IMG/VR virus record: IMGVR_UViG_3300030419_003589 | Span: 36,777-100,776 of that record | Reading direction: 5' to 3' (one strand) | Length of the DNA stretch: 64,000 nt | From: a virus | Shown: positions 32,648 through 53,323 of the stretch, in pieces | How the letters are laid out: each line of letters begins with the position of its first letter | How positions within the stretch are numbered: position 1 is the first letter of the stretch | Made by a program: the position numbers and the translations under genes | The notes under the pieces: generated by a model | Database searches by the model: none | Told to the model about the DNA's origin: nothing | The model's input: only the letters and a program-made list of their open reading frames with translations

Positions 32648-34332
32648 TATTTCATCAACTCCCTTTGCTGCATTGTTTCTATCCTTTTTTGCTCCCACTG
32701 GTTTATTCTGTTTCTTTGTATGGATAGATTTTCATAGGCATTGTTAAAATCAAAGGGCTGTCTTGTGTTTAAGCCGTCAAATGCGGCGGATGACTCATTA
32801 AAATACATTCCTCCAGTGGATGATGTAGCGCTTCTATAGGTTAAGTCTCTTGTAAGCCTAGCTTCAAAGAATGTATTAAGCTTTGAGTGATCCTTTAGTA
32901 CGTTTGTTATCAACCATCTGGCTAGATCTTTATGATTCACGTTTGGTGGAATATCTTCGGGTTTGGGGTCGGGATGCTGTATGTCTGGCTGCGAGCACCA
33001 AGTTTGCTCTACAGGTCTTATCTCTACGCTATCAAAGTAGTCTTCCCATTTTTTACCGCTCATATGCCACTGGAAGTTTTGAGTGAATAGCTCTCTAGTT
33101 CTTTTACCAAGCTCTTCTCTCTTTTCATCTGTATACTCATTGAAAAATTTATCAAAGTACTCTGCGGCGACATTGTTATCTGGAACTGCTCTCAAGCATC
33201 CAGTTTCCAGCTCTTTGTATAGGGCAGCTGGTTTTATGGGGTATCCTTCGAGTTTTCTGATTTCGCTTTCCATAGCAGAATAATCTGTGCCGCAAACAGG
33301 AACACCACACGCAGCCGCTTCTACATAGGGCAATCCGAAGCCTTCGCAGTTTGCATATTGAGTGTAGAGATCGAATAGGTTCATAATAGAGGATAGATCT
33401 TCATACGAAACCCCGTTCTTCACGTTGGAGAGTGTGGAACCCCATTTTCCCGTAAACGGAGATTGTGCTACAGCCCCTTTAAATACAGATGGGAAAGGAC
33501 GCTTTGTTTCTGGACAAATGTACGTGAAGAGAACGTGAGAGGACAGATTGTGCTGTTGAAGCAGTTCCGGTATATCCCACCCTAAGTCTGGATATGATGT
33601 GTGACAATAGAGCATCACATTTTTGTTTTCTGATTTGTCTAAAAACGCTCTAAACGCCTCAAATAGATCTGGGTATAGCTTACGCCTCTGGTTACGCATA
33701 ACCGTGCCCAAAATCTTGCAGTCTGGGTCTAGTCCAAACTGCTTTTTGTGCATTTTTTTGTCCTCTACCGGATTATAAGCTGGATGCGCCGAAGGAGGAG
33801 CACTACCTAAATAGTTTATTTTACCTCCCGATTGGTCCTCCAGAACGGTTCCTGCCCAGTCGGAGTAGGTAAGGCAGGCATCTGCACTATTATACGAAGC
33901 TACCCACTGACGTGCTTGCGGTCTTGCATCAACGGTAGGCATGATGCACCACTTAAAGTATTTCCTAAATGGAGACCGTTCTGCAAATTCTAGCATCCAA
34001 AAGTCCCTAATGTCACAAACAATGTCTGGCATGAAATCGAGACATACGTGCTCAAATATCCACTCTCCAAACTGATTAGCGCCAGAAGAGTTGTATGCGT
34101 TGATTTCTTCTTCTGAGGCTTTAGGCTCACAGTCGGTATTTGGAGCCACGCCGTAATAGTGCCAAGGGATACCTTCGGCTCGTGGGTCATTTCTCTGCCC
34201 GTAAGATGACATCTCAGCAATTTCATACTTGCCGGTGCCATGAAGATAGTTTAAGATTTCGCGTGTATAGGTCGCATAGCCTGTGTTTAAGAACGTAGCT
34301 TCGCTACAGAATAGAATTCTTTTCTTTCTCAT
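32647..34332 (-). CDS. large GT4-family glycosyltransferase (561 aa)
   Basis: Starts RKKRILFCSEATFLNTGYATYTREIL (GT-B N-domain) and carries YANCEGFGLPYVEAAACGVPV near residue 335, the classic E-x7-E donor region. A C-terminal extension of about 130 residues ends in a Gln/Arg/Glu-rich helix not typical of GT4 enzymes. It opens the glycan island right after the SSB gene, one base past its stop, so replication and glycan genes share a transcript. Confidence 0.88.
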   Translation of the reverse strand: MRKKRILFCSEATFLNTGYATYTREILNYLHGTGKYEIAEMSSYGQRNDPRAEGIPWHYYGVAPNTDCEPKASEEEINAYNSSGANQFGEWIFEHVCLDFMPDIVCDIRDFWMLEFAERSPFRKYFKWCIMPTVDARPQARQWVASYNSADACLTYSDWAGTVLEDQSGGKINYLGSAPPSAHPAYNPVEDKKMHKKQFGLDPDCKILGTVMRNQRRKLYPDLFEAFRAFLDKSENKNVMLYCHTSYPDLGWDIPELLQQHNLSSHVLFTYICPETKRPFPSVFKGAVAQSPFTGKWGSTLSNVKNGVSYEDLSSIMNLFDLYTQYANCEGFGLPYVEAAACGVPVCGTDYSAMESEIRKLEGYPIKPAALYKELETGCLRAVPDNNVAAEYFDKFFNEYTDEKREELGKRTRELFTQNFQWHMSGKKWEDYFDSVEIRPVEQTWCSQPDIQHPDPKPEDIPPNVNHKDLARWLITNVLKDHSKLNTFFEARLTRDLTYRSATSSTGGMYFNESSAAFDGLNTRQPFDFNNAYENLSIQRNRINQWEQKRIETMQQRELMK

Positions 34333-34333
34333 T

Positions 34334-34648
34334 TTAGTCCTTGTCCAAACATCCGAAGTCGAATTGATTAACTCTGAAAATAATGTCTCCATTTTCATCT
34401 GCGTTCTTCGCAGAGGCTTGGACTGTCATTTTCATTCCTTTTTTACCCAATTTAGAGATAGCATCAGCCCCGCTATCCCAAGCTTGAAATTTTAAAGTTG
34501 TTGGGTATCTCTTTTTTTCTCCGTTTTTATTTCTTACATATTCATATGTAATCAAGTCAAACTTACAGAACCTTGCATTGTAGCCCCCGCTTGTCGGGAT
34601 AACTACCGGCGTTTCCAAGAGATATCCTGTAAATGTGCATATATTCAT
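34334..34648 (-). CDS. ssb: single-stranded DNA-binding protein (OB fold, 104 aa)
   Basis: ICTFTGYLLETPVV, RFCKFDLITYEY...KRYPTTLKFQAWDSGADAI and GMKMTVQASAK match the bacterial SSB OB-fold in order. The usual acidic C-terminal tail is reduced to CLDKD, so partner recruitment through that tip may differ. It has its own promoter (34669-34697) and directly precedes the glycan island. Confidence 0.85.
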   Translation of the reverse strand: MNICTFTGYLLETPVVIPTSGGYNARFCKFDLITYEYVRNKNGEKKRYPTTLKFQAWDSGADAISKLGKKGMKMTVQASAKNADENGDIIFRVNQFDFGCLDKD

Positions 34649-34661
34649 TTGTATTCCTTAG

Positions 34662-34681
34662 ATACTACATTATAGTAGTAT
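34662..34681. promoter_or_regulatory. perfect inverted repeat centred on the SSB -10 box
   Basis: ATACTAC (34662-34668) and GTAGTAT (34675-34681) are exact inverted arms that enclose precisely the six bases of the -10 element. This is an operator-like arrangement for a repressor or activator; chance cannot be excluded. Confidence 0.5.
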
Positions 34682-34697
34682 GGTATAATTATTCCAA
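34669..34697 (-). promoter_or_regulatory. promoter for ssb and the glycan island
   Basis: On the - strand TTGGAA (34697-34692), a 17-base spacer, and a perfect TATAAT (34674-34669), 21 bases upstream of the ssb ATG. AAGGAATA serves as ribosome site. Confidence 0.65.
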
Positions 34698-36266
34698 TTA
34701 AATTTCATGAATTTTATCGACAATAAATGAGTTGTCTTTATCTACATCTCCACACAGCATGAGGTTGTTGCCCTCATATAAAATATACTGGTATTTGTCT
34801 CTAGCATCGGGGAAAACAATGACACTGTCTAGTGAGCAGGTCATATCCTCAATAGTGAGAAACGACATGGTTCTGCCCTTCTGCTTGCTGCCCTTCTTGT
34901 TGATCTTATGGTTAGCCACCCTCTGAATATTGGCTACAATACATATGTCTTTGCCGTGTTTTCCGTCCATAATTTCCTTACAGGTTGTGTTGGCTATTGA
35001 GGTATCAACAGCGTCAACCTTGGAGTAAGACACTGGACACCCCAGCATTTTGGTCTCCTGCTCAATAATCCAAGCCGGATCATCATCCAGACTGTAAGGG
35101 GGATTCTCCAAAAGCTCTATTTCATTCTCAACAATCTGACTGCGATTCACATTACTGCACCCGCCGCCCAGTTTTTTGGTGGGGGCAAGATCTCTGAAGC
35201 ATTCCTCTAATTTTTCCCATTTATTTATTGGGTATTTTGAGGTGACCCATTTGACCTCAGTCTTGGTAAGCTCCCTGAAGATCAGGTATTCATACAATGC
35301 TTGATTTCTAGTTACTCCCGTTGACTTGGTAGAGAAGAAGCCTATAGAGGCCAAGGCTTTGAAGGCCGTGGAATTAATCTTAGGGGATAAATAGATCAGA
35401 ATGTCCATCCATGTAAAATTCTCTGCTTCTTTACCTAGTTCTTCCGTTGCTTCAGAAATAGCACTGACCACTTTGTCGCCCGTAACTCCGGTTAGCCCCT
35501 TTACGTCTTTGACTCCAAATTGTACGTTATCACCAAAGATAGCAAATTTTTTAGAGAAATTACTTAGTTTAGGAACCTTTACTTCAATATTAAATAGTTT
35601 AGCTTCGTTTACTAGCTCATAGATTTCTTGGTGCGGGTCTTGCTTCTCATTTGCGTAGTATAGGTACGACAAGAAGAACTCTTTGGTGTTGTTGGCCTTA
35701 TAGTACGCAGACCAGTAAGAGTCCAAAGCATAGGCTACGGCGTGGGACTTATTAAATGAATATCTAGATGATTTTTCAATCCACCCAAAGATTTCCTTGG
35801 CCGTTTCTTCATCAACAATACCCTGCTGCTTGCATCCATCGACAAACTCGCCACGTATTTTAGCCATAAGGTCTGCCTTCTTTTTACCAATGGCCTTTCT
35901 GAGATTGTCGGCTTCTTGCTCATTAAATCCTGCCAACTTCACGGCAATAAGCATTGCCTGCTCTTGGTAGACAAGAACTCCATACGTAGGCTTAAGTATT
36001 GTCTCTAGAGATGGATGTAGATAAGATACCTCCTCCTTATTATGCTTCCTGTCAACAAATCGCTGAGTCATTGACTTTCCATCAATAACGGCTTTCAGAC
36101 ATCCGGGCCTAATTAAAGCAATTAATGCCGCAAGTTCCTCTAGGTTTTTAGGTGCTAATCTCTTTGACCATGCTCTACCGAGATTGCTCTCAAGCTGAAA
36201 GACCCCCTTAGTTAGGCCTTCCTCATAGAGGCTCCAAGATTTTTTATCATTTCTATCTATAATCAT
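34698..36266 (-). CDS. dnaE: DNA polymerase III alpha, C-terminal half (fingers to OB domain)
   Basis: GVFQLESNLGRAWSKRL, LAALIALIRPG, YGVLVYQEQAMLIAV..AGF...EADNLRKAIGKKK and RYSFNKSHAVAYALDSY (near residue 168) are the fingers/thumb-facing motifs of DnaE. Residues about 430-522 hold an OB-type segment (TMSFLTIEDMTCSLDSVIVF). The three palm aspartates are absent because they sit in the partner gene at 36955-38583. The tau-binding tail of cellular DnaE appears missing. No intein residues precede the first Met. The two halves must associate to make an active polymerase (inference). Confidence 0.9.
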   Translation of the reverse strand: MIIDRNDKKSWSLYEEGLTKGVFQLESNLGRAWSKRLAPKNLEELAALIALIRPGCLKAVIDGKSMTQRFVDRKHNKEEVSYLHPSLETILKPTYGVLVYQEQAMLIAVKLAGFNEQEADNLRKAIGKKKADLMAKIRGEFVDGCKQQGIVDEETAKEIFGWIEKSSRYSFNKSHAVAYALDSYWSAYYKANNTKEFFLSYLYYANEKQDPHQEIYELVNEAKLFNIEVKVPKLSNFSKKFAIFGDNVQFGVKDVKGLTGVTGDKVVSAISEATEELGKEAENFTWMDILIYLSPKINSTAFKALASIGFFSTKSTGVTRNQALYEYLIFRELTKTEVKWVTSKYPINKWEKLEECFRDLAPTKKLGGGCSNVNRSQIVENEIELLENPPYSLDDDPAWIIEQETKMLGCPVSYSKVDAVDTSIANTTCKEIMDGKHGKDICIVANIQRVANHKINKKGSKQKGRTMSFLTIEDMTCSLDSVIVFPDARDKYQYILYEGNNLMLCGDVDKDNSFIVDKIHEI

Positions 36267-36287
36267 CTTAACTCAATATTACTAGGG

Positions 36288-36962
36288 CTAAACAAAAAGC
36301 TTACCGTCTGCGAAAGCTTTTTCAAATTTCATATTTCTGTAAACTGCTCTTCTGGATTTTTGTAGCTTGATAAAGATATTTGCGGTATCCTTAACGTCCT
36401 GAAGTGCGTCGTGAGCATTTTCACTGGATAGCCCCATTCGTTCTCTTAGACTATCCATACTGATAGACTTAACATTAGGATCTCCCTCAGTCCAAAGCCA
36501 AACGTCGTCCATAACGTCAATTTTATAAATTTGGTGGAACAGTTTTTGTTGTTGCCGCTTGTCATCCCAAGGGCCGTATTCCTTGCACAGTCGATTCACG
36601 ATATGCATATCATACCCAATGATGTTAAAACCGGCGGGAATAGGTGCAAAATAAGACGTACCCTTCCAGTTATATTTATCAACAAAGGCGCAGAACTTTT
36701 TCCAGACACCTTTAGGTAGGGGCGCTCTTGCTAGTTGCGACCTAGTTTGCCCAGTGACTTTCAGTGCCCCCTCTTCAACAGGATCAACACCTGCTGCTAT
36801 AGCCTTTTCGTCATCCAGTATTGGACGCATCATGCTATTGAACTCACCTTTAAGCCTAAAATTTCTACCATCTAAGGCGATGGCTGCGATTTGTGTAGGT
36901 TGGCATCTCATCGGGTTACGACCACCCGTTTCAAAGTCAAACACTATAATGTCTCTATTCAT
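36288..36962 (-). CDS. DEDDh 3'-5' exonuclease, DnaQ/RNase T-like (224 aa)
   Basis: Exo motifs are in order: FDFETGG (Exo I), AGFNIIGYDMHIV (Exo II) and HDALQDVKDTA (Exo III, DEDDh type). It lies exactly between the two polymerase halves, overlaps the end of the N-terminal half by 8 bases with AAGGAG upstream, and has a 21-base gap to the C-terminal half. The position strongly suggests it is the proofreading subunit of this replicase. Confidence 0.88.
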   Translation of the reverse strand: MNRDIIVFDFETGGRNPMRCQPTQIAAIALDGRNFRLKGEFNSMMRPILDDEKAIAAGVDPVEEGALKVTGQTRSQLARAPLPKGVWKKFCAFVDKYNWKGTSYFAPIPAGFNIIGYDMHIVNRLCKEYGPWDDKRQQQKLFHQIYKIDVMDDVWLWTEGDPNVKSISMDSLRERMGLSSENAHDALQDVKDTANIFIKLQKSRRAVYRNMKFEKAFADGKLFV

Positions 36963-38583
36963 GAATAGTCTCCTTGATTAACATCAATTTGTCTAGTAGA
37001 TTGATGCCTAGTACGTCAAATTTAACATGTCCTAAAGATTCAAGATCTGCCATTTCTAGACCAGCGATTTTCTCTTTTCCACTTCTTTGGTTTACCATAG
37101 GGCAAACTGTGTAAAGCGGTTCTGCTGAAATAACTACGCCAGCGGCGTGTTTGCCTTGAGTTTTAAAAGTCCCTTCAATGTCTATTGCCTGCTGAAAGAA
37201 TTCCGCATAGTCTCCTTGCAGTTGTCCCTTATCATTTACAAAACAGTAGTCACGAAGGTCGTCTGCGTTATTAATTAATGCCCACCTAATGATAGACCTA
37301 TCTTCCTCGTCCATCTCTGCTAGTTGGTCAGAGATAGCCGCCTCATCTGGGATGTATTTAGTTATTTCATTCATCTCACCAAAGCCGCAAGCGCTGTTGA
37401 CCCTGAGAACTTCTTTGATAGCACTCCTACCCTGTAGTCTCCCAAACGTGAGCATTTGGCTAACATTGTCGCTTCCGTATGTCTCTTTAAGATAAGAAAT
37501 GATTTCATCACGTTTACCGCCCGGAACATCAATATCAATATCTGGGAGGGAGATGTGATCCTCTGTATTACGCCCAGCGTTATAGAATCTTTCAAACAAT
37601 AAATCAAATTCGATGGGGTCAATCTGCGTGATCCCTATGAGGTAGGAAATCAGACATCCGGCGGCAGATCCTCTACCCGGACCAACAAGCCAACCCTGCC
37701 CCTTGCAATACTCGATAATGTCCCATACGATTAAGAAGTAACCGAATAGATTGGCTTCTTCTATGACCTGATACTCCTTTCTGAATCTATCTCCGTACTC
37801 CTTTTTCTTGTCCTCGTCAGTAATTGTTTCGCCAAGGAGTTTTGTCCAACCTTCTCTGGCCAAATCTCTTAGATAGTCCTTTTGAGAATTCCCTTTAGGG
37901 GTTTGGAAGTCAGGCAGCATTGGCTGGTTCAGTATGTTATAGTTCTCGCACTTATCGTATATTTCTTTAAAAAGATTCGGTTGGGGATCTTCTATTAGCA
38001 GCTCTGTGGCTCCGATTTTATCTCTAACAAAGAAGTCATTCGACTCAAAGAAAATTTGATTTTCAACCTCTTGCCCCTTATTTAGTGCCCTACTGATTTT
38101 TGGCATAGTGGTCTTCATCTTTGAGCAGAGTATAATCCTATGAAGAACTGCGTCCTCTTTCTCTGTATAGTAGCTTACATGAAGGGAATCGGTGTGTTCG
38201 TAAAAGTCGTCGCCCTTAATTGGCGAAAGAGATTCGTTCTTGGCGACAGATATAAGATTGCGACCGTTGCCGAGCTTCACTATTAGGGAGTGGTCTGGCT
38301 TTTGTTCTTCAGATATTGAGGATACTATTTGTATCAACTCCAGCCAGCCATCTTTATTCTTAGCGAACAGCGTGAAGTCATCGAACGCGCATCCTATAAT
38401 TGGCTTTATATCCTGTGCTAGGCAGGCTTTGTAGAACGCAACTGCTCCGGATACGCTTTTATAATCAGCTATACCGCAGGCTCTATAATGATTGTCAGAG
38501 CATTTTTTCGCTAGCTGCTTCGGTTTAGAGAAACCTTTTTGCAGAGAGTAGTGTGTATAATTACACAGTGGAAACCAGTCCAT
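36955..38583 (-). CDS. dnaE: DNA polymerase III alpha, N-terminal half (PHP and palm)
   Basis: Residues 1-70 resemble the PHP domain (CNYTHYSLQKGF, ACGIADYKSVSGAVAFYKA), with few metal-binding residues left. The palm contains VGPGRGSAAG near 298, PDIDID near 346 (two catalytic Asp) and KFDVLG near 521 (third catalytic Asp). The protein stops about 20 residues after that Asp, just before the region that becomes VFQLES in the other half. So all catalytic acids are here and the fingers are in the separate C-terminal gene. AAGGA precedes the ATG. Confidence 0.92.
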   Translation of the reverse strand: MDWFPLCNYTHYSLQKGFSKPKQLAKKCSDNHYRACGIADYKSVSGAVAFYKACLAQDIKPIIGCAFDDFTLFAKNKDGWLELIQIVSSISEEQKPDHSLIVKLGNGRNLISVAKNESLSPIKGDDFYEHTDSLHVSYYTEKEDAVLHRIILCSKMKTTMPKISRALNKGQEVENQIFFESNDFFVRDKIGATELLIEDPQPNLFKEIYDKCENYNILNQPMLPDFQTPKGNSQKDYLRDLAREGWTKLLGETITDEDKKKEYGDRFRKEYQVIEEANLFGYFLIVWDIIEYCKGQGWLVGPGRGSAAGCLISYLIGITQIDPIEFDLLFERFYNAGRNTEDHISLPDIDIDVPGGKRDEIISYLKETYGSDNVSQMLTFGRLQGRSAIKEVLRVNSACGFGEMNEITKYIPDEAAISDQLAEMDEEDRSIIRWALINNADDLRDYCFVNDKGQLQGDYAEFFQQAIDIEGTFKTQGKHAAGVVISAEPLYTVCPMVNQRSGKEKIAGLEMADLESLGHVKFDVLGINLLDKLMLIKETIHE

Positions 38584-38615
38584 AGTAATCCTTCAATATT
38601 AAGTTAGAGACTATT

Positions 38616-38966
38616 CTACCTAAGTCTCGAATCAATCTTTAATGTGGACTTTATCCCGCCACGAGGGTTAAAACCCGCTTCTACAACCAACGTATATGGG
38701 GTGAAGACCTCCATAATGTGATCATAAAGGGTATTAATAAATCTCTCATATGAGAGTCTGTTGTTACGAAAACTATAAATATACTTCTTAAACGACTTGA
38801 GTTCAATCACAGAGTCACTGGGTACCATAGTTAGGGTAACAAATCCAAAGTCTGGCTGATCTTTGTCTCCCAAGAACGTAAGCTCGGGACAGTCGATGGT
38901 AATTTCATAAACATCCTTTGAAGGATTCTTGATTCCTTGCAGGATCGACTTGTCGCCCCACACCAT
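38616..38966 (-). CDS. QueF-like T-fold protein without the catalytic cysteine (116 aa)
   Basis: IDCPELTFLGDKDQPDFGFV, IELKSFKKYIYSFRNN and GFNPRGGI align with the preQ0 reductase QueF (CPEFTSLCP-TGQPDF, ESKSLKLYLFSFRNH, FTPRGGI). In QueF the Cys of SLCP attacks the nitrile and a His follows the FRN motif; here those positions are Gly and a non-His residue. The substrate-binding Glu and the Asp of QPD are kept. It is therefore probably not an active nitrile reductase of the known type. Its own promoter precedes it. No FolE, QueD or QueC gene is in the window. Confidence 0.8.
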   Translation of the reverse strand: MVWGDKSILQGIKNPSKDVYEITIDCPELTFLGDKDQPDFGFVTLTMVPSDSVIELKSFKKYIYSFRNNRLSYERFINTLYDHIMEVFTPYTLVVEAGFNPRGGIKSTLKIDSRLR

Positions 38967-39015
38967 ATTGTATACCTCTTCTCAATACCTCGTTCAATAA
39001 TACCCGATTTGTATT

Positions 39016-39044
39016 ATTATAGTCCAGCGAGGAGTATTCTCCAA
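39016..39044 (-). promoter_or_regulatory. promoter upstream of the QueF-like and polymerase genes
   Basis: On the - strand TTGGAG (39044-39039), 17 bases, TATAAT (39021-39016), inside the 86-base gap before the QueF-like gene. The -35 side overlaps a small GGAG/CTCC hairpin. Confidence 0.55.
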
Positions 39045-39052
39045 GGTGTTTT

Positions 39053-39721
39053 CTAGAAGTTTCTTAGTTCGGGGAACAATTCATACCTAATATTTTCCCA
39101 TACCGCTCCAGAGATTATCATAGAAGCCTCATTGTCTGATGGATAATGCACTCCTTGGAGCATCCTAGCCGCCCCAGCTGAGGAAACTTTAGAGAAAAAT
39201 TCAGATGAATACTCTGGATATTTTGCTGATAATATATAAGCCCCAAGAGCAGCGTACGCCGTGTGACCAGAAGGGTAGGCTGGCGTATGGTGACTGCTGG
39301 TTTGAGTGACTTTTATCTTAATGTCATACATGGGTGCCAACTGATAGGGTCTGGGTCTATTAAATTTATACTTTAAATTTTTAATGACCGGAGACATGAT
39401 ATCCCAAGCCTTGCTGAATATATCGTAGGGGAATTCCAGCCCATGTTTTTTCAAAGTTTTGTGATAAAGAAGATTTGGGTTGGCGTCTACCATCTTAATT
39501 AAGTCTAACTGAGAGTTGCTTAGACTTCTTGTTAGTTCAGATATGTAAACTAACTCCTTCTTGGTGGTTTCGCTGCCATTGGTTGGCGGGTCGGCTAGAA
39601 CGTTGTCCCAACCGATAGTAACCGCCTGCGGAACTTCAAAGGTCTTCTTTTCGTCGCTATATCTTAGCTTGTCTATCTTTTCTAGAATAACCTTATTTAA
39701 ATCGTCTATATACTTATTCAT
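39053..39721 (-). CDS. PAP2-superfamily phosphatase/haloperoxidase-fold protein (222 aa)
   Basis: The three PAP2 motifs are present: KYKFNRPRPYQ (K...RP), YPSGHTAYAALGAYI (PSGH) and AARMLQGVHYPSDN (R...H...D). No signal peptide or membrane helices are visible, so it resembles soluble acid phosphatase or vanadium-enzyme relatives rather than lipid phosphatases. It ends the DUF1501 cassette, overlapping the membrane protein gene upstream by 8 bases. Confidence 0.85.
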   Translation of the reverse strand: MNKYIDDLNKVILEKIDKLRYSDEKKTFEVPQAVTIGWDNVLADPPTNGSETTKKELVYISELTRSLSNSQLDLIKMVDANPNLLYHKTLKKHGLEFPYDIFSKAWDIMSPVIKNLKYKFNRPRPYQLAPMYDIKIKVTQTSSHHTPAYPSGHTAYAALGAYILSAKYPEYSSEFFSKVSSAGAARMLQGVHYPSDNEASMIISGAVWENIRYELFPELRNF

Positions 39722-40027: not shown

Positions 40028-41242
40028 TTAGGAAAATAGTTCAGTGATTACTTTTCCTGAATTAGCTATTTTCATAGGTCGCCCACTATTACTTGTGTAA
40101 GTGGTTTGTAGCGAAATGCCAAGTGCCTTACAGATTGAGGCCATGACATCTTGGGAGGAATAAGGCTCTGTCTCCACTCTGGTACCATCTTTGTTTGTTG
40201 CACCAATGGCGATACCACCATTCATGCCAGCACCACCAACGACAACGCTCCAACTTCGCGCCCAATGGTCACGACCGGCGTTCCCGTTGATACGTGGAGT
40301 TCGACTAAATTCGCCCATCCATATGATAGCTGTATCCTCCAATAACCCTCTTTGCTCTAAATCCTCTACTAATGCGCTCATACCTTGATCTAGCATGGGC
40401 AACTTTGTGTCTCTTAAAGTCGGGAAGATGTTCTGATGGTTATCCCATCCACCAAGGCCTACTTCAATAAATGGAACACCAACTTCTACTAAGCGTCTAG
40501 CCATTAGACACCCTTTACCGAAGCTGTTGTCTCCATATCTTTCCTTTACATTTTCTGGTTCGTTTGCTACCTTCATCGCATCCATCTCTTTGCTAGTGAG
40601 AACGTTGAAGGTTTTTCTTAACACCTTTTGGTGCTCTTTGGCTAATGATCCCCTATTACTGTTTATAAAATTGGTTTCCATCATATCTAGAACATGTGCC
40701 CTTTGATAAAATCTTTGATCTATTTTCATATCTAGATTTCTAATCCTGCCGTCGCTATTTACAGCGAAGGGATTATATTGAGCACCTAAAAATCCAGCAC
40801 CCTGACTTGGGCCATTCACGGAAACGAATTGCGGAATTAAAAGATCTTGTTTCTCTAGCTGTTTAGAAATAACTGAGCCATAGCTCGGATGAACCATGTT
40901 TGGGTTGGGGACATATCCAGTGTGCATATAATAGCGTCCACGCATGTGGTCAGCTTCACGAGTACTCATACTGCGAATGATTGCCATATTATGCATCTGT
41001 TTTGCCATCAACGGCATGTGTTCGCAAATCTCTACATCCCCAGTTGTGCTCACGGGCTTAAACGGGCCTCCAGTCGGCGCGTCTGGTTTTAAGTCCCAGA
41101 TATCCATAGTAGAAGGGCCGCCTCCCATCCACAAGAGAATGGCCGACTTCCCATTTTTCTTCAATTCTTGCTGGTTGGCTTTGAGTGTTTGCGTCAAAGC
41201 AGCAATTCCAGCTAGTGATGATAAAAACTCTCTTCTTTTCAT
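40028..41242 (-). CDS. DUF1501 protein 1, Tat-exported putative sulfatase/phosphatase-superfamily enzyme
   Basis: The N-terminus MKRREFLSSLAGIAALTQTL is a twin-arginine signal. The mature part carries the DUF1501 series: MGGGPSTMDIWDLKPD, GGWDNHQ near residue 264, GEFSRTPRIN near 308 and GRDHW near 321. DUF1501 belongs to the alkaline-phosphatase clan (family knowledge), so these acidic and His residues are likely metal ligands. Substrate is unknown. It is the most downstream of four paralogues in the cassette. Confidence 0.92.
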   Translation of the reverse strand: MKRREFLSSLAGIAALTQTLKANQQELKKNGKSAILLWMGGGPSTMDIWDLKPDAPTGGPFKPVSTTGDVEICEHMPLMAKQMHNMAIIRSMSTREADHMRGRYYMHTGYVPNPNMVHPSYGSVISKQLEKQDLLIPQFVSVNGPSQGAGFLGAQYNPFAVNSDGRIRNLDMKIDQRFYQRAHVLDMMETNFINSNRGSLAKEHQKVLRKTFNVLTSKEMDAMKVANEPENVKERYGDNSFGKGCLMARRLVEVGVPFIEVGLGGWDNHQNIFPTLRDTKLPMLDQGMSALVEDLEQRGLLEDTAIIWMGEFSRTPRINGNAGRDHWARSWSVVVGGAGMNGGIAIGATNKDGTRVETEPYSSQDVMASICKALGISLQTTYTSNSGRPMKIANSGKVITELFS

Positions 41243-42005: not shown

Positions 42006-42476
42006 CTAAAATCTGAAGTGAAAAAATAATCCGCTAAACGGTGTAGGGTACACCGGTACGGGTTGTGGCTGTATAATTACAGGAGGGTGATATACTCTGT
42101 AAAAGCCATGTATTGGATGATACCTAGTTTCTACGGAAGGGTAATAAAATGGGTGAACATATGGTCTACCAATTATTATGCTTCCATGTCTATAGTTGTG
42201 GCTAGGTCTGACCTGTTGCTGTTGCTGCTGAGGTTTTTGCCACTCTTGTTTTCCAAACCCCGCAGGTCTTTGTATAGGTCTTCCAAAGCCTTGAGGTAAT
42301 TGTGGCTTCACGGCGGCTGGTGGCCTCGCAGTAGTTGGGGGTGCGACGACCCTTCGCTGTTGGGATGACTGAGGCCTCGCCGTAGTCGGAGGTTTAATAA
42401 CCTTGCGTTCAGGCTGTTCCGCATTTAAAGAAAGTGGCACAAATAATAAACATAGTAGTGATGCTAAATATTTCAT
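42006..42476 (-). CDS. secreted Pro/Gln/His-rich protein (156 aa)
   Basis: Residues 1-19 form a Sec signal peptide (LASLLCLLFVPLSLNA). The mature protein has two PPTTARP repeats, a Gln run (QQQQQQ) and a Pro/Tyr/His-rich C-terminus (PYVHPFYYPSVE). Such low-complexity proteins often lie on cell walls or surfaces. The start overlaps the stop of the second DUF1501 gene as TAATG with AAGGAG, so both are made together. Confidence 0.7.
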   Translation of the reverse strand: MKYLASLLCLLFVPLSLNAEQPERKVIKPPTTARPQSSQQRRVVAPPTTARPPAAVKPQLPQGFGRPIQRPAGFGKQEWQKPQQQQQQVRPSHNYRHGSIIIGRPYVHPFYYPSVETRYHPIHGFYRVYHPPVIIQPQPVPVYPTPFSGLFFHFRF

Positions 42477-43759
42477 TATATCAACTCCTTAATTGGTTCT
42501 CTGTGATCCAGAAGATACTGAGGTCTTCCGGTTCTATCTAATAAAGTGGTTGACATAGTATCAATACCCAACCCTCTATACATTGTTGCGCAAATTTCTT
42601 GAATATGCACAGGTCTGGTTTCTGGAACCTCACCAAGCCTATTGGTTTCTCCGATGGTCTGGCCATGATTAAAGCCTCCTCCTGCGAGTAAAGCACAAGA
42701 AACTTGAGGCCAATGGTCACGACCACCCTTTGGATTAATCTTAGGCGTTCTACCAAACTCTCCCCATACTACCACGAGCGTATCGTCTAGCATACCACGT
42801 TGATCGAGATCTCGAACAAGCGCGGACACGCATTGATCCAACTTTGCTCCATGATCTCTAACTAAATCAAAATTAGAACCGTGACTGTCCCATCGACCGT
42901 AAGAAAGTGTGACAGACCTAGCTCCAGCTTCGACAAGTCGTCTTGCCATCAGTACATGCTCATTTACAGTAGGCGCTCCATCGTATTGAAATTTGAATGG
43001 TTTGCCGTCTCCGTACATCTCTTTAATTTTTGGATCTTCTTTTGATAAGTCCAAAGCATCGACTAAAGAGCTTGATGTCAATACCCCAAAAGCTTCTTCC
43101 GTAAATGTATCTACACCAACAGCACTATCAATAGTCTTGTTTAATGTTGCAAATCCATTCAGTAGGTCTTTTCTATTTTTAAACCTTTCAACCTGCATGT
43201 TAAGCTTAAGGTCTTTCATCATCTCACCATTTGGTTTAAATGGCTTATGTGTATCCCCTAGATATCCGGCTCCACCAGCTTCTGACCAAGGGCCGTGCTG
43301 TGTGGGCTCTGCTAGTCCTACGGCAACCGGTACGGCAGGATCAACTGAGCCTAAAATCTTAGAAGCACACGCTCCGATAGCGGGATAGCTAGTGCCTGAA
43401 ACCATATCCTTACGGCTCCAGCCAGTGACACATTGGTGACCATCATGTGAGCCATCTGACCCCACTACCGAGCGAATTGCTGTAAACTTATCAAACATAG
43501 AAGCAATCTGTGGAAAACATTCACCGATGTATACACCCGCCACGTTGGTCGAGATCGGCTTAAAAGGTCCACGAATTTCCGAAGGTGCTTCTGTTTTTAT
43601 ATCCCACATATCTTGATGTGGAGGGCCACCGCCCAAGAAAATATTAATTACTGCTTTATGTGACGTACCACTTTTCTCTTGAGCATAAAGAACCTGCGGC
43701 ATAGAAAGGAGACCTAAGCCCCCTACCGATAAGAAACTTCTACGTGATAAATTTAGCAT
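42476..43759 (-). CDS. DUF1501 protein 2, Tat-exported
   Basis: SRRSFLSVGGLGLLSM (residues 5-20) is a twin-arginine signal ending near YAQ. The domain motifs are LGGGPPHQDMWDIK, YGRWDSHG near 285, GEFGRTPKIN near 331 and GRDHW near 344. The second Gly of the GGWD motif is Arg here, a small deviation. AGGAG precedes the ATG. Other sulfatase-clan proteins use similar Asp/His sets for metal binding. Confidence 0.92.
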   Translation of the reverse strand: MLNLSRRSFLSVGGLGLLSMPQVLYAQEKSGTSHKAVINIFLGGGPPHQDMWDIKTEAPSEIRGPFKPISTNVAGVYIGECFPQIASMFDKFTAIRSVVGSDGSHDGHQCVTGWSRKDMVSGTSYPAIGACASKILGSVDPAVPVAVGLAEPTQHGPWSEAGGAGYLGDTHKPFKPNGEMMKDLKLNMQVERFKNRKDLLNGFATLNKTIDSAVGVDTFTEEAFGVLTSSSLVDALDLSKEDPKIKEMYGDGKPFKFQYDGAPTVNEHVLMARRLVEAGARSVTLSYGRWDSHGSNFDLVRDHGAKLDQCVSALVRDLDQRGMLDDTLVVVWGEFGRTPKINPKGGRDHWPQVSCALLAGGGFNHGQTIGETNRLGEVPETRPVHIQEICATMYRGLGIDTMSTTLLDRTGRPQYLLDHREPIKELI

Positions 43760-44193: not shown

Positions 44194-45450
44194 TTAGCTA
44201 ATTAGTTCTTGAATAATCTTACCACCATCAACGATTTCAATTGGACGATCACCGGGAGCCATTAGCTCTTTATCAGCAACAATGCCCAATCTGTTATAGA
44301 TGGTAGCCGCCCAATCCTCTATGCTGACTGGGTCTTGGTCTGGCTCACTAGCGGTTGCATTTGATGTGCCATAAGTGAGACCTCTCTTGATTCCTCCACC
44401 CGCCATAATAGTACTAAATACCTTTGGCCAGTGATCTCTTCCTGCGCTGGCGTTGATTTTTGGAGTTCTACCAAACTCTGAGACAACGCAAACCAATGTG
44501 GAATCTAATAATCCGCGATCATCCAAGTCTTCGATAAGAGTTGCAAAGCCTTGATCGAAAGCCGGTAGCTGACTTTTCATGCCATTGGATATGTTATCGT
44601 GCATATCCCAGCCGCCGTAGGTGAGTGTTACGAATCTTGTTCCAAACTCTACTAGTCTGCGGGCCAGCAGCATCCTAGCTCCCGCAGTATTTCTTCCATA
44701 TCTGTCTCTTAAGGCCGCTGGTTCTTTTTCTATATCAAATGCTTCTCTTGCATTTTGGTCTCCTATAAGGCTATATGCTCTTTGATAAAAAGAGTTAACG
44801 GCAGTCAAGGAGTCCGCATCTTCTTTCTTGTTAAACTCAGTGTTTACAATATCTAGAACACGCCGTCTTCTACTAAATCTTGCATCCTCCACCGGCACTT
44901 TTAAATCTCTAACCTGAAAGTTTTTACTGGCGGGATCGGAACCTAATCCGAATCCAGAGTATGAGCTGCTTAAATATCCAGTGCCTGCAAATTCATTAGG
45001 TTGGTTTGGGATGCAGACATACGGAGGGAGGTTTTTACGTGGCCCAAACTCGTGCGCAACCACTGAACCCATAGATGGGTATTGAAGGGCTGGGCTAGGT
45101 CTGTAACCAGTAAACATATTGTGTGTGCCACGCTCATGGGCTGCCTCTCCGTGTGTCAGACTGCGAATGATAGCAATTTTATCTGTTATCTTCGCTGTTT
45201 TACCCAATAGTTCTCCGAGGCGAATCCCCGGAACATTGGTTTCAATACTACCAAGTGGCCCACGATATTCTAGGGGAGCGAATGGCTTAGGATCAAATGT
45301 CTCCTGATGAGCCATTCCCCCCGGAAGGTAAATAAAGATGATGCTCTTAGCTGGCCCCTCCTTGCTATCATAATGTTTTTGATCTGCTCTAGCGAGAGAT
45401 GCACCAAAACTACCTAAGATTCCAGCTTGTAAAAAAGACCTTCTTTTCAT
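44194..45450 (-). CDS. DUF1501 protein 3, Tat-exported
   Basis: MKRRSFLQAGILGSFGASLARA is a clean Tat signal with an A-x-A-like cleavage site. The domain motifs are LPGGMAHQETFDPKP (Glu replacing Asp), YGGWDMHDN near 276, SEFGRTPKIN near 322 and GRDHWP near 335. Its start has an AGGTA ribosome site just after the tiny membrane-protein gene. It is closest by eye to the fourth paralogue in the GGWDMH region. Confidence 0.92.
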   Translation of the reverse strand: MKRRSFLQAGILGSFGASLARADQKHYDSKEGPAKSIIFIYLPGGMAHQETFDPKPFAPLEYRGPLGSIETNVPGIRLGELLGKTAKITDKIAIIRSLTHGEAAHERGTHNMFTGYRPSPALQYPSMGSVVAHEFGPRKNLPPYVCIPNQPNEFAGTGYLSSSYSGFGLGSDPASKNFQVRDLKVPVEDARFSRRRRVLDIVNTEFNKKEDADSLTAVNSFYQRAYSLIGDQNAREAFDIEKEPAALRDRYGRNTAGARMLLARRLVEFGTRFVTLTYGGWDMHDNISNGMKSQLPAFDQGFATLIEDLDDRGLLDSTLVCVVSEFGRTPKINASAGRDHWPKVFSTIMAGGGIKRGLTYGTSNATASEPDQDPVSIEDWAATIYNRLGIVADKELMAPGDRPIEIVDGGKIIQELIS

Positions 45451-46904: not shown

Positions 46905-47942
46905 TTACCCCGGAGCTTCATAAAAACCTATATTAAAGCCCGGACGTGTGCATTCTTCTAAAGTTTTTTCCATACCGTGTTTTTTTAAGTGCTTCTCTAT
47001 ATATATACACATTTTCTCGTCTGTGCCTTCCCAATTGTTTTTACAAAAATGACACAGATACTTACATTTCCAATGAGTTCTAGTAGAATCTAGGAGTTGA
47101 GGGTTGTTATTTTGTCTAATTTCCTCTACCCTGTCTTTTAACATGCCTAAAAACCTAGCTTCATCACTCTTGTCAAACATAAGCGAAAATGGCCTTGGAT
47201 CTGGATCTCCATCTTTGTCTTTATAGAAGAAAATGCTCATAATCCTGTTTGGGAATTCTGGATATAACTTTGATATAGCATAGAAATATAAGAGTAATTG
47301 AGCGTCATTCTCTAGTTTTTTGTAGTCCTTTACTTCGCCTGTAGCCCAGTCCATACGGCGGCCAGTCTTCCAGTCGATCACTTCTATAGTTTCATCGTCA
47401 ATTTTAGTAACGAGGTCAATCGTGCCCTTAATGGCTAATTGTCCTTCAACCTTTTCCCCGTTTATTTCATATTCAAACTTTGCCCAATCTTCTTCTATTG
47501 GTATGTCAAAATGAGGCTCAGGGTGATGTATATTCCTATATCTAGGATCAAACTGCCCATCACCGTGTCTCAAAAAAGTCCATACCGTCTCAGTTATGTC
47601 CCTTCTGTCTTTTGGCCCAAACTTGTGTACTGAGTTCTTGGCGTAGCAGTCTATCGCTATTTCGCATAATTCATTTACAAAGTCATCTGTGTATAATTCA
47701 TCCTTATGAATTCTTATTTTGCCAGCCGCATCATCCTCCACAACCAAGTAACGCTTCCTTGAGTTGTCTTGTTGAAATTTTTTGAGTCCAGCCAGTACCT
47801 CCATTACCTTGTGGGCCATAGTTCCCATGTCGGCCTTTTTGCCACTATCGGACTGATGGCCTAGAACATAGGTTATAAAGTATTGCATTTGGCAATACGC
47901 ATAATTATTATAGCTTGAACTTCTTACATAAGTAACTAACAT
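46905..47942 (-). CDS. RecB/Cas4-like PD-(D/E)XK nuclease with a Cys cluster (345 aa)
   Basis: GTIDLVTKI and EVIDWKTGRRMDW (residues about 170-195) are the D and D-x-K nuclease motifs, followed by LLLYFYA. YCQMQY near the N-terminus and KCKYLCHFCKNNWEG...MCIY near residues 302-322 supply four cysteines in the AddB/Cas4 arrangement, suggesting an Fe-S cluster. AAGGA precedes the ATG. A role in phage DNA end processing or recombination is likely. Confidence 0.8.
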   Translation of the reverse strand: MLVTYVRSSSYNNYAYCQMQYFITYVLGHQSDSGKKADMGTMAHKVMEVLAGLKKFQQDNSRKRYLVVEDDAAGKIRIHKDELYTDDFVNELCEIAIDCYAKNSVHKFGPKDRRDITETVWTFLRHGDGQFDPRYRNIHHPEPHFDIPIEEDWAKFEYEINGEKVEGQLAIKGTIDLVTKIDDETIEVIDWKTGRRMDWATGEVKDYKKLENDAQLLLYFYAISKLYPEFPNRIMSIFFYKDKDGDPDPRPFSLMFDKSDEARFLGMLKDRVEEIRQNNNPQLLDSTRTHWKCKYLCHFCKNNWEGTDEKMCIYIEKHLKKHGMEKTLEECTRPGFNIGFYEAPG

Positions 47943-47943
47943 A

Positions 47944-48723
47944 TTATTCCTTTAAGTGATGGTACATTTTCTTGACCTTCACTATCAGGGAATCAATACT
48001 TTCATTGCTATTTTCTATATACAGTGTGAAGGGATAATTATCTAATGCCGTCTCGCTTGAGTGGCTATCTTCTGAGATTTTTCTTGTTAAACGAATAACA
48101 TGTCCTCCAGCAGATTGAATAGCATCCGCTTCGTCGGGGAATCTAACATCGGCAATTATGGATAGCTGCGATTGCTCTCGTTTAATTTTCTTTATACAGG
48201 AGTTTACCCATATAGACTGATGAATACCTCTACAGACATCCGTGCCAAAAAATTGCATAAATTCACGGGCGGTCATTGGGCCTTCTTTCCAGCCATGACT
48301 TGTTCTTGCGTCTGGTGGTAGTATTTTCTTCATCATCGTAGAGTTTATTGCTTTGGGCATCTTTTCCCAAAGAAGGTGATCCTGAAGCCGGTTCTTCTGC
48401 TCGTCGGTTCCCCATACGCACTCTGCGGGTATGTCGAATAGCTCTGAGCATATATGCTTTAAGCTGTCTGCGAAGCTGTATAGCTTAACATGGGGCCACA
48501 TGTTGTGGTCTGCATACTCAACAAATGAAGGGTCTTTTCTGGTTATATCAAATTCCCCCCAACCCTCTGCCCCAGACGAATCTTCTGTCAAGATCATCAA
48601 TTCGCCGTTACGACCAAGGTTCCAATCTTTTACTAACTCTCTGTCCTTAAGAATTACGCCGTGAAGTATATTGGCGACTGTATTTTTACCGGCCTGTTTA
48701 CGCCCCGAAATTCCTAGTATCAT
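47944..48723 (-). CDS. deoxynucleoside monophosphate kinase (dNMP kinase)
   Basis: GISGRKQAGKNTVANIL is the P-loop of T4 gp1-like dNMP kinases; VKLYSFADSLKHICSELF, WGTDEQKN and the later IIADVRFPDEADAI complete the family pattern. The enzyme phosphorylates dNMPs to dNDPs, feeding the pool from host DNA breakdown. It overlaps the primase stop as TAATG. Confidence 0.88.
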   Translation of the reverse strand: MILGISGRKQAGKNTVANILHGVILKDRELVKDWNLGRNGELMILTEDSSGAEGWGEFDITRKDPSFVEYADHNMWPHVKLYSFADSLKHICSELFDIPAECVWGTDEQKNRLQDHLLWEKMPKAINSTMMKKILPPDARTSHGWKEGPMTAREFMQFFGTDVCRGIHQSIWVNSCIKKIKREQSQLSIIADVRFPDEADAIQSAGGHVIRLTRKISEDSHSSETALDNYPFTLYIENSNESIDSLIVKVKKMYHHLKE

Positions 48724-49751
48724 TAATAGTATCCTTGTAAGTCTTTTAAAATGTTCTCTTTGATTGTCTCAGTTAGCATGTTACCCAAATCTTTTGTGTG
48801 CATATGCGGAAAGACTAACTTAAATAGTCTCCCCACATCTCTCTTTATCTTTATCTTGGACTCTCTGCCAGCTTGATCGTTATCTGTTAAGATCACTAGT
48901 GTGGTTGCTCCACTCTTGAGTAGGAGGCTTCGCTGCTTGTTTGATATATCTTTACCAAATAATCCCACAGCGTTTTTTACTCCGCACTCCCATAGCTTCC
49001 AGACATCCCCCTGCCCCTCTACCAAGAATATACATTTACTTTTCTTTACTGCTTCAATCGCTCCATCATAATTGTACAAATAGTCTGTCTTCTTTATGCC
49101 GCTTGAAAATAAGTATTTAGGTTGTAGCCAGTCTTTTGTTGATCTAGCTATGTAGCCTATTTCCGATCCACCAAAGTAAATAGGAATAATTGATCTATGA
49201 CGCATTGGAGATCTGTTGTTATTACAATCTCTTACGTTAAAGTGGCTAAGGGTTCTACGGTTAAACCCCCTACTCTCAAAGTAAGGAGATCCGTCCGATG
49301 TCTCAACCCGTTCAATCTGAGGCTGTATATTTACTAAGTCCTGTTTCTTGCGTACGGTTTTTACTAAGTTACCAAACAAGTCTTCTTTAGGCTTTACCTT
49401 CTTTTTTGCTTCAGTCTTTGCGTCATTTACGTTGTATAAATTGCAAACGTACTTTAGCGCATCCGAGAAGGAATCTGTATGAAGTACACCTTTAACTAAA
49501 CCGAATATATCTGTATTGTAGTGCTCATGACATCCACGAGTCCAGCATCTCCAAGCCTGTTTGGTCAAGGATATTGATACCCCTTGTGGGTTATCACTGC
49601 CCTCGTGAATAGGACACTTCATAAATATATTATCCGCCACCTGCTCATATTCCAAGTCAAAACTATCTAAAAGTTTCTCAATGTCTTCAAATATGATGTT
49701 CTTTACTTTTTTTAGGTCTAGAGTCTTTTTTGGTACACTCTTGCTACGCAT
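48723..49751 (-). CDS. DnaG-type DNA primase (342 aa)
   Basis: An N-terminal zinc site (KCPIHEG near 45 and CWTRGCHEH near 68) is followed by a TOPRIM domain with FLVEGQGDVWKLWECG near 230 and VILTDNDQAG near 272, the Glu and DxD motifs. It is shorter than cellular DnaG and lacks the C-terminal helicase-binding part. The start lies inside the end of the acetyltransferase gene (34-base overlap) with only a weak ribosome site. Confidence 0.88.
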   Translation of the reverse strand: MRSKSVPKKTLDLKKVKNIIFEDIEKLLDSFDLEYEQVADNIFMKCPIHEGSDNPQGVSISLTKQAWRCWTRGCHEHYNTDIFGLVKGVLHTDSFSDALKYVCNLYNVNDAKTEAKKKVKPKEDLFGNLVKTVRKKQDLVNIQPQIERVETSDGSPYFESRGFNRRTLSHFNVRDCNNNRSPMRHRSIIPIYFGGSEIGYIARSTKDWLQPKYLFSSGIKKTDYLYNYDGAIEAVKKSKCIFLVEGQGDVWKLWECGVKNAVGLFGKDISNKQRSLLLKSGATTLVILTDNDQAGRESKIKIKRDVGRLFKLVFPHMHTKDLGNMLTETIKENILKDLQGYY

Positions 49752-50400: not shown

Positions 50401-51464
50401 TATAATTTCTCCACTGATGAGTCATGATGGGTTCTATTTACACGCACAAATCGTGCCGTTTTACTAAAATCTTTTAATGAAGTCGCTCCGGTATAAGCAC
50501 AGGCGCTACGAACACCACCAAGAATGTCTTCTATCACTACCTTTGCCTTTCCCTTGTATGCGACCTTTTGTACTCTACCTTCGCTAGATCGGTATCCACG
50601 AAGGCCATCTCCATGTTTTTCTTGAGCCTTCTTGGAGGACATGCCATAAAATGTTAAATATTTACTACCGGCATGTTCCATCCATTCACCCTCGCACTCT
50701 TTTGTTCCAGCGAGCATACCCCCAAGCATAACAAAATCAGCACCCGCCCCATAAGCCTTGGCGACATCTGCTGGGTAGCGACATCCTCCATCTGCACAGA
50801 TTAGCCCCAGCCTACCAGCATCAGAGCGTAGTCCATGAGCAACGTGGGAGCATTCGGCAATAGCGGAAAGCTGCGGGTAGCCGACCCCAGCCTTAAGCCT
50901 TGTTGTGCAAGCAGAACCGGGACCAATACCAACTTTAACAATGTCAACTTCTCCATGTAATATTAGTTCAGAAACCATCTCTGGTGTTGCTACATTTCCC
51001 GCCATAATTATAGAGTCCGGAAATTCCAGCCTAATTTTGCTACACCAGTCAACAAACTTTTCGGTATATCCATTGGCAATGTCTATGCAAATATTTGGAG
51101 AGAAATTGATAGTTTCCTCTATGTCATAAAGTTTATCTAAATCCCGATCCCAGTCCATTCCAACACTGACCCAAGCGTTAGGCTCTATATTATAGTGCTT
51201 AAAGTAGGATTCTATGTCTTGTGCATCATAGTATTTATGTAGACATGTTATTGCGCCGTGATTATTTAGTGCCACGCCCATATCAAACGTACCTGTCGTA
51301 TCCATGTTGGCTGCCATCAAAGGAATACCGTGCCACTCCTTTGGCGAGTGGTAGAACTTGAATGTTCTCTTTAGCTCTACCTGTTTCCTGCTCGCTGTGG
51401 CCGATCTTTGTGGTACAAGTAAGACATCATCAAAATCTAGTTTAACCTCATTATCAATTTTCAT
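50400..51464 (-). CDS. guaC: GMP reductase
   Basis: The IMPDH/GMPR barrel is unmistakable: LDFDDVLLVP, AANMDTTGTF, CIDIANGY, MAGNVATPEMV, KVGIGPGSACTTR (catalytic Cys loop), ICADGGCRYPADVAKA and GADFVMLGGMLAG. Close agreement with E. coli GuaC and absence of CBS domains favour GMP reductase over IMP dehydrogenase. It converts GMP to IMP with NADPH. ATG 51464 follows GAGGAA; a TTG further up is unlikely. It is an unusual gene for a phage. Confidence 0.9.
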   Translation of the reverse strand: MKIDNEVKLDFDDVLLVPQRSATASRKQVELKRTFKFYHSPKEWHGIPLMAANMDTTGTFDMGVALNNHGAITCLHKYYDAQDIESYFKHYNIEPNAWVSVGMDWDRDLDKLYDIEETINFSPNICIDIANGYTEKFVDWCSKIRLEFPDSIIMAGNVATPEMVSELILHGEVDIVKVGIGPGSACTTRLKAGVGYPQLSAIAECSHVAHGLRSDAGRLGLICADGGCRYPADVAKAYGAGADFVMLGGMLAGTKECEGEWMEHAGSKYLTFYGMSSKKAQEKHGDGLRGYRSSEGRVQKVAYKGKAKVVIEDILGGVRSACAYTGATSLKDFSKTARFVRVNRTHHDSSVEKL

Positions 51465-52905
51465 CTTGTTCCTCGATATCAAATGGTAAATCAGAACCCT
51501 CGATTACGTTGTCGTCAGGAGAAGACCGTATTTCATCTCTAGTTCTTAACTCCAAGAGTTGCGAATGAGATCCTATCATGTTCATGTTTATATAATTGCC
51601 ATCTAGTAAACCGGCACCATGTCTTGCTTTAAGGGTTACGACTTTTCTATTTCCCGCATTTGGGCCATCTTCAGCAAGCTCTTCTGCTGATTTAAGTTTG
51701 AATATAGAAAAAGATGTGCATAGCCAAATCAGTCTATCGGAGCCGCTTACAGCATCTGTAGATTCTTTGGTAATGCCATCTCTATTGAGTTGAACAAAAG
51801 AAAGACATGCGAAGTCATATTTAACAGCGAGGTTATGCAGGTTGGTAATCTGAAATCCAAGAGCCTGATACTCCTGTATATTATTTGTTATGCCGGATGA
51901 GGACATCAATTTTAGGTAGTCATAAACAACTAGGCAGTCGTTTGTTTTTCCGTTCTCATCTTGTCCGACTTCTCTGAGAATCCATCGCTTAATGGTATTT
52001 AGGATGGTTTCAAAAGGAGCGCCAGCCACACTAACGTAGGTGTACGGGATATCTCTGATTTCTTCCATAGCGTTTTTGACTTTGATGACCTTCTCATCGT
52101 CGTCAGCAAACTTTCCGGTAGAGATTTCCTCAATAGGTACTCCGCTAATGTTTGATAGAATTCTGTTTAGGTGATCTTCTTTACTCATCTCCGTATCAAG
52201 CATGAGTACGGGAATGCCCTGACGCGCGTTGTGTAGGGCTACATTGTCTGCGAAAACAGACTTACCAACACCGGGGCGAGCAGAAACAAGATCCACACAC
52301 TTCCTACGAAGCCCACCGCCAATAACCGAATCAAATCTTGGAAACCCACTGGTTAAACCTATCTGATCACATTTGTTCTCAATAAGGAATTCTACATATT
52401 CGTCTATATCGTCGCCAAGCATTTCTGGTTTTTGACCAGATTCATCGTCTCGTAGAAAATCCATAAGCGGGGACTCTACGATATTAATGATATCGTCAAT
52501 GCTCTCATCTCCATTTATCGAGCAAATATCATTTTCTATCTTTTTAGTGATACGCTTCGCGCTTCTTGCAAACTCAAACTTTTTTATCTGGGCAGCGAAG
52601 TGTGGTACATTTTCTTTCTTGACGGGGTAATCCATCAAGTCTCTTATATATTCTAGTTCCTGAGTGGTCTGTACCGTTTCAGACAGGTTCAATTGCTCTG
52701 CTGCCGACAGTATAGCCGGAATATCAATAGCGGCATCACTCTCCAGCACTTTTTCAGCGCACTTATAGATTACCTGATTATTACGGTTAGAGAAGCTGCT
52801 CTGCGTAATAAAATCATTTATCTCAACGTATGACTCTAGACCGTAGGCAAACAAGCCCGCTAGTACGGCTCGTTCTGCCCCAAGATCCGAAAGATCGGGA
52901 TTCAT
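51454..52905 (-). CDS. dnaB: replicative DNA helicase, DnaB family
   Basis: An N-terminal DnaB domain (ERAVLAGLFAY) leads to a RecA-like motor with SARPGVGKSVFADNVA (Walker A, near residue 217), LMLDTEMS (H1a), CLVVYDYLKLM (Walker B) and a later FVQLNRD plus VTLKARHGAG. GLTSGFPRFDSVIGGGL is the typical lead-in. ATG 52905 with AGGAAGA is preferred over a longer reading overlapping the upstream gene. Confidence 0.93.
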   Translation of the reverse strand: MNPDLSDLGAERAVLAGLFAYGLESYVEINDFITQSSFSNRNNQVIYKCAEKVLESDAAIDIPAILSAAEQLNLSETVQTTQELEYIRDLMDYPVKKENVPHFAAQIKKFEFARSAKRITKKIENDICSINGDESIDDIINIVESPLMDFLRDDESGQKPEMLGDDIDEYVEFLIENKCDQIGLTSGFPRFDSVIGGGLRRKCVDLVSARPGVGKSVFADNVALHNARQGIPVLMLDTEMSKEDHLNRILSNISGVPIEEISTGKFADDDEKVIKVKNAMEEIRDIPYTYVSVAGAPFETILNTIKRWILREVGQDENGKTNDCLVVYDYLKLMSSSGITNNIQEYQALGFQITNLHNLAVKYDFACLSFVQLNRDGITKESTDAVSGSDRLIWLCTSFSIFKLKSAEELAEDGPNAGNRKVVTLKARHGAGLLDGNYINMNMIGSHSQLLELRTRDEIRSSPDDNVIEGSDLPFDIEEQDEN

Positions 52906-52906
52906 A

Positions 52907-53323
52907 TTATCTTCCTGTGCAGCGGTTACATCTAGTAAATTCACCATAAACTAGGTTGGAGTTGATTGAGAAAGTCTTTCCGCAGACATGACACTCAACC
53001 TGTTTTTTATTTGGCTTACGCCTATTCCTAGGGGTTTTCTCAAATTTGGCTGGATCAAAGTTGGGGTCACTAAATTCGCCTTCATCAACCCATTCGTTTC
53101 TTTTCGCTTTCACTGCGGTTTTCCTTTTTGTATTATTAGGTTCTTTGCGTTTAACGGTAAAATCTTCATCTACGTTTTGTGTGCTTTCCGAAGCTACTTC
53201 CTTTTCAGACGCAGGAGACGGAGTACCTCCTTTGACATTGCTATTTAGGATTCCCTTGATAAGTTCCTCCTTTTGTTCCGGAGTAAGGGATTCCAAAAGT
53301 GCTTTTATAATCTGATCACTCAT
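52907..53323 (-). CDS. zinc-finger protein upstream of DnaB (138 aa)
   Basis: A Lys/Pro/Glu-rich, mostly disordered N-terminal 100 residues precede VECHVCGKTF and RCNRC, a two-pair zinc finger. It is translated just before the helicase and overlaps the next gene upstream by ATGA. A helicase-associated or primosome DNA-binding role is plausible by position only. Confidence 0.6.
   Translation of the reverse strand: MSDQIIKALLESLTPEQKEELIKGILNSNVKGGTPSPASEKEVASESTQNVDEDFTVKRKEPNNTKRKTAVKAKRNEWVDEGEFSDPNFDPAKFEKTPRNRRKPNKKQVECHVCGKTFSINSNLVYGEFTRCNRCTGR

Follow-up and report, generated by a model that had tools for sequence, protein, structure and literature searches.

The replicase of the virus studied here is best read as a DnaE-type DNA polymerase III (Pol III) alpha subunit made as two noncovalently associated chains, with a DEDDh exonuclease as its proofreading subunit; we put the probability of this reading at about 0.86. 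C-family replicases are normally single chains, and bacteria and most phages make alpha as one chain. In a large lineage of phages, replication apparently relies on an alpha that is interrupted within the polymerase core, and both unsplit relatives and intermediate gene orders survive, so that the origin of the two-chain replicase can be traced.

A probable three-gene replicase locus

The stretch of DNA that was analysed, hereafter the window, comprises 64,000 nucleotides of a 122,431-base virus record. Three genes on its minus strand follow one another, as read in the direction of transcription, in the order alpha-N, exonuclease, alpha-C. These genes and their replication-related neighbours are as follows.

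36955..38583, minus strand: alpha-N, 542 aa, with PHP and DNA_pol3_alpha matches (Pfam)
36288..36962, minus strand: stand-alone DEDDh exonuclease, epsilon/DnaQ-like, 224 aa, with an RNase_T match (Pfam)
34698..36266, minus strand: alpha-C, 522 aa, with a DNA_pol3_finger match (Pfam), running from the fingers to the OB fold
34334..34648, minus strand: SSB-like OB-fold protein directly after alpha-C, with a weak Pfam match just under the cut-off
46905..47942, minus strand: PD-(D/E)XK nuclease, a conserved upstream landmark ('RB') of the alpha/exonuclease block
47944..48723, minus strand: deoxynucleoside monophosphate kinase of the replication module
48723..49751, minus strand: DnaG-like primase (Toprim) of the replication module
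51454..52947, minus strand: DnaB-like replicative helicase of the replication module

RecA and ribonucleotide reductase genes also lie near the split alpha, and the SSB-like gene is a neighbour conserved in relatives with and without the split. Other genes of the region include one for a QueF-like protein (38616-38966), just upstream of alpha-N and not found in that position among the relatives that were compared. Two DUF1501 proteins (45624-46886 and 44194-45450) are encoded within the replication region, and the products of 42476-43759 and 40028-41242 look similar to them.

Alpha-N carries a degenerate, shortened PHP domain followed by the thumb and palm (catalytic D348, D350 and D523). Its NTPase domain, with the three catalytic aspartates, matches PF07733 (E 6.9e-70), and this is the only match to the Pol III alpha NTPase domain in the 122,431-base record. 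Alpha-C matches the finger domain PF17657 (E 1.9e-46) and contains the RKAIGKK and FNKSHA motifs; no tau-binding C-terminal domain was seen in it. When aligned to E. coli alpha, for which a structure is solved, alpha-N extends as far as residue 564 and alpha-C picks up at residue 590 (590-858, with the OB fold at about 974-1057), such that the two halves cover complementary, non-overlapping parts of the bacterial enzyme. AlphaFold models computed for each half alone both match Pol III alpha structures, with moderate confidence (pTM 0.53-0.54). The palm, fingers and OB fold of the window's alpha are those expected of a DnaE-type Pol III alpha, and it departs from that class in not being a single chain.

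The exonuclease possesses a complete DEDDh set (D9, E11, D118, H184 and D189) and matches both RNase_T and phrog_192, annotated as 'DNA polymerase exonuclease subunit'. A preliminary description of this DNA had placed its gene exactly at the split with an 8-base overlap onto alpha-N, and the coordinates agree (36962-36288 against 38583-36955). Searches of the 122,431-base record, which may be an incomplete genome, found neither a PolA nor a PolB polymerase, and no bacterial-type sliding clamp was found in the record.

Position of the break in the palm-finger linker

The same description located the end of alpha-N about 20 residues beyond the third catalytic aspartate and the start of alpha-C in the VFQLES region. 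Both positions are accurate: D523 stands 19 residues from the end of alpha-N, and VFQLES lies approximately 22 residues into alpha-C, which starts with its own methionine and retains the linker at full length. In the single-chain models, alpha-N has its last palm helix at 528-541 and alpha-C its first finger helix at 8-15, which puts the break between these two helices. The span from the phenylalanine that precedes the third catalytic aspartate to FQLE measures 43 residues in the window and 43 in each of two unsplit relatives, here called L202 and L030; across the split loci it is 40-53 residues. Alpha was thus opened in the palm-finger linker at no cost in residues. No homing endonuclease gene is present at the break in the window.

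Conservation and selection across relatives

Scans of viral contigs for relatives yielded 175 loci distinct by their exonuclease DNA. The search for the same order in related contigs, which the preliminary description had proposed, found alpha-N, exonuclease and alpha-C in that order at 167 of the 175, drawn from many metagenomes. With N, E and C denoting alpha-N, the exonuclease and alpha-C, and X and Y two further genes, 94 loci are arranged N-E-C, 48 X-N-Y-E-C, 13 N-Y-E-C, 9 N-X-E-C and 3 N-E-X-C; among the remainder a few are truncated and 4 have the exonuclease upstream of alpha-N. Gene X (L030:6573-7070 and homologues) encodes a protein of about 160 aa, occupies several alternative places around alpha and the exonuclease, and has no Pfam or PHROG match.

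None of the three catalytic aspartates, the DEDDh residues or the finger motifs varies among the 89 complete loci of the window's group. For alpha-N, the exonuclease and alpha-C, pairwise dN/dS is 0.008-0.098 wherever dS is computable; NG86 dS is saturated for pairs that include the window, and these ratios come from closer pairs of relatives. All three genes are thus under purifying selection.

The N-exonuclease-C locus also occurs in two contigs of GTDB metagenome-assembled genomes (MAGs), namely VFHP01000007.1 (L277; a SAR202 cluster MAG, 152,655 bases) and a contig of a Flavobacteriales MAG (L278). Both are probably phage contigs, and their binning into bacterial MAGs gives a weak hint as to hosts. 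The phages that bear the split alpha form a widespread, mostly marine group.

Mobile elements were encountered at several of these loci. In L030 (8001-12687) and L264 (8662-12080), a split intein interrupts alpha at FN(K/R)|SH, and a separate DUF559-type endonuclease gene stands between the parts, which makes this a 'fractured gene'. Alpha of L264 comes in three coding pieces, the exonuclease not counted. The intein of L021 (10331-12679) is contiguous, includes an HNH endonuclease domain and lies in alpha-C at IRPG|CLKS; L029, L264 and L265 show an interruption similar to it. Endonuclease genes of HNH and endonuclease VII-like types recur as flanks of the exonuclease (L008, L055, L082, L016, L056, L098 and others), and remnants of such genes persist in the gaps beside the exonuclease in L022 and L089.

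Unsplit relatives and the origin of the split

As a lone query, the L030 exonuclease retrieved only its own two contigs; an alignment of exonucleases found L202 and L203. In L202, alpha is an unbroken protein of 1144 aa in one frame, and ahead of it come X, Y, the exonuclease and a gene for an HNH-type endonuclease. The genes of L030 are ordered alike; there, a single frame spans alpha-N, the palm-finger junction and most of the fingers. An SSB gene and a glycosyltransferase gene lie downstream of alpha in L202, L030 and the window alike. According to the preliminary description, a relative whose locus joined the halves in one frame and lacked the exonuclease would speak against the split. Single frames across the junction do exist in L202 and L030, yet both carry the exonuclease just upstream; these relatives therefore support the unsplit form as ancestral and do not refute the split.

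The unsplit order, X-Y-E-alpha, compared with the split orders X-N-Y-E-C, N-X-E-C and N-E-C shows that alpha-N and the Y-exonuclease block swapped places at one point; X was afterwards moved or lost in the window's group. We take the unsplit order as ancestral because alpha is single-chain in bacteria and most phages, with intact alpha genes elsewhere and two unsplit relatives here, and because L202 and L030 are unsplit with the exonuclease just upstream we read the change as one from X-Y-exonuclease-alpha to X-N-Y-exonuclease-C. The Y-exonuclease block could have entered alpha at the palm-finger linker, or a tandem duplication could have been followed by complementary loss. In maximum-likelihood trees the two unsplit relatives stand separate from both groups of split loci; as to whether all split loci form one clade against the unsplit ones, support stands at 92/85, and with more rows an AU test (p 0.465) does not settle the matter. 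The common breakpoint and a common deletion in the PHP domain lead us to argue for one splitting event.

A different order of events is conceivable if doubtful, in which a homing endonuclease gene split alpha, as in nrdA of phage Aeh1, and the exonuclease block arrived later. HNH or endonuclease VII-like genes do sit in the N-exonuclease and exonuclease-C gaps of many relatives, L202 has one between its exonuclease and its unsplit alpha, and phage enzymes split by such genes are on record (PMC2988022). However, the second split group shares X-N-Y-E-C, an order whose gap holds Y and the exonuclease, and in many members a further gene would not fit there; the endonuclease genes are also patchily distributed and so may be later arrivals. 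This question touches the origin only and leaves the function of the split alpha unchanged.

PHP domain and proofreading

In the aligned split alphas, the PHP HxH motif and the other metal ligands are replaced and approximately 75 residues are gone, whereas the PHP domain of L030 is intact, as is PHP motif I at the alpha starts of L202, L203 and L112. Judged by these alignments, the split alphas lack an active PHP metal site, a site that is not universal in the C family. PHP is inactive in many known alphas too, and in bacteria its inactivation offset by a separate DnaQ-type exonuclease is a known case (PMC12926913). Given the loss of the ligands and of part of the domain, proofreading in the split lineage probably rests on the separate exonuclease. 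Its gene position, together with the PHP loss, leads us to predict that it is the epsilon of the split alpha.

A probable two-chain polymerase and its alternatives

The palm, with its three catalytic aspartates, would come from alpha-N, and the fingers and OB fold from alpha-C. Because neither alone is a complete polymerase, the halves most likely bind each other; each would fold, associate noncovalently with its partner and so rebuild one polymerase, which the DEDDh exonuclease would serve as proofreading subunit. The earlier proposal of a three-gene replicase working in trans finds good support in the observed conservation and selection, and physical assembly is predicted from the sequences. 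We consider it unlikely that the exonuclease additionally forms a structural bridge between the alpha halves, making polymerase assembly depend on the proofreader; were this true, such dependence would keep the exonuclease in place at the break throughout the lineage.

From one contig taken alone, an assembly or sequencing error uniting unrelated genes would be conceivable, and a read-level error had been named at the outset as something that could undo the observation. The conservation of the arrangement leads us to reject it, with a probability that is practically nil: the 167 distinct loci and the two MAG contigs share the order, and sequence is conserved on both sides of the breakpoint. 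That the halves are decaying remnants in a phage replicated by a host or other polymerase is hardly more credible. The degenerate PHP metal site of the split lineage could be read as decay, but the polymerase motifs are invariant in 89 loci and dN/dS remains below 0.1 in every computable comparison. No second polymerase was found in the record, and helicase, primase and SSB genes lie near the split alpha. On the invariant motifs and the purifying selection we reject pseudogenes.

Covalent joining of the halves, either by split-intein trans-splicing or by RNA splicing that removes the exonuclease segment, draws on the inteins present in the same alpha gene of relatives (contiguous in L021; split, with an endonuclease gene between, in L030 and L264). 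Neither window half has a Pfam intein match, however, which bears out the original observation that no intein flanks the junction, and no Rfam intron was detected in 34000-39200. Alpha-N simply stops 19 residues past the catalytic aspartate, alpha-C has its own methionine with the linker at full length, and the intervening exonuclease gene is under strong selection of its own. The Pfam, Rfam and conservation evidence leads us to reject covalent joining as very improbable, and a noncovalent pair of chains is the reading that we retain. The pair offers natural halves for assembly and proofreading assays.

Comparison with known split enzymes

Group 2.2 jumbo phages encode a split minimal Pol III alpha (Iyer et al., 2021, PMC7824862). 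As in the window, the catalytic module is there divided between two proteins proposed to reconstitute one enzyme. The jumbo-phage form, in contrast, consists of distant genes for a minimal module without other Pol III domains, in phages that encode a family B polymerase besides (PMC7824862); in the window the genes sit together as a compact block, the exonuclease occupies the break, an OB fold and a remnant of PHP are retained, and no PolB was found in the record.

The closest match in breakpoint is Rossellomorea phage phiT1 gp20/gp18 (PV767480; L194:3947-7229), whose alpha is split at the same palm-finger linker. The gene between its halves encodes 49 aa and is not an exonuclease, the phage is a distantly related one of Bacillales, and its PHP motif I looks intact. 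Since phiT1 groups with unsplit alphas in the trees, its split is probably independent, and the palm-finger linker, broken in phiT1 as in the present lineage, stands out as a site at which a split is tolerated. Cellulophaga phages phi13:1 (L002) and phiST and Bacillus phage vB_BpsS-140 (L195) also encode alpha in two frames, with the breaks at other positions, preceding either the catalytic DxD region or the palm; the split in vB_BpsS-140 is unannotated in its record.

Cyanobacterial DnaE likewise comes from two genes, joined covalently by a split intein at a later site near FNKSHA. The window has no intein and its FNKSHA site is intact, as the preliminary description recognized in distinguishing the two split points. 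Among other enzymes, the NrdA of phage Aeh1 is split into halves that reassemble into an active enzyme (reviewed in PMC2988022), and, along with the T4 gp60/gp39 topoisomerase and the split gp43 of T4-like phages, it resembles the present case in having two reassembling polypeptides for one gene. The best understood of these genes in pieces were split by homing endonuclease insertion, whereas the gap in the window holds a proofreader of related function. The preliminary description considered the arrangement new, which holds in part: split Pol III alpha as such was already known from the phages named above, and in a literature search of open-licence papers we did not find an exonuclease at the break described.
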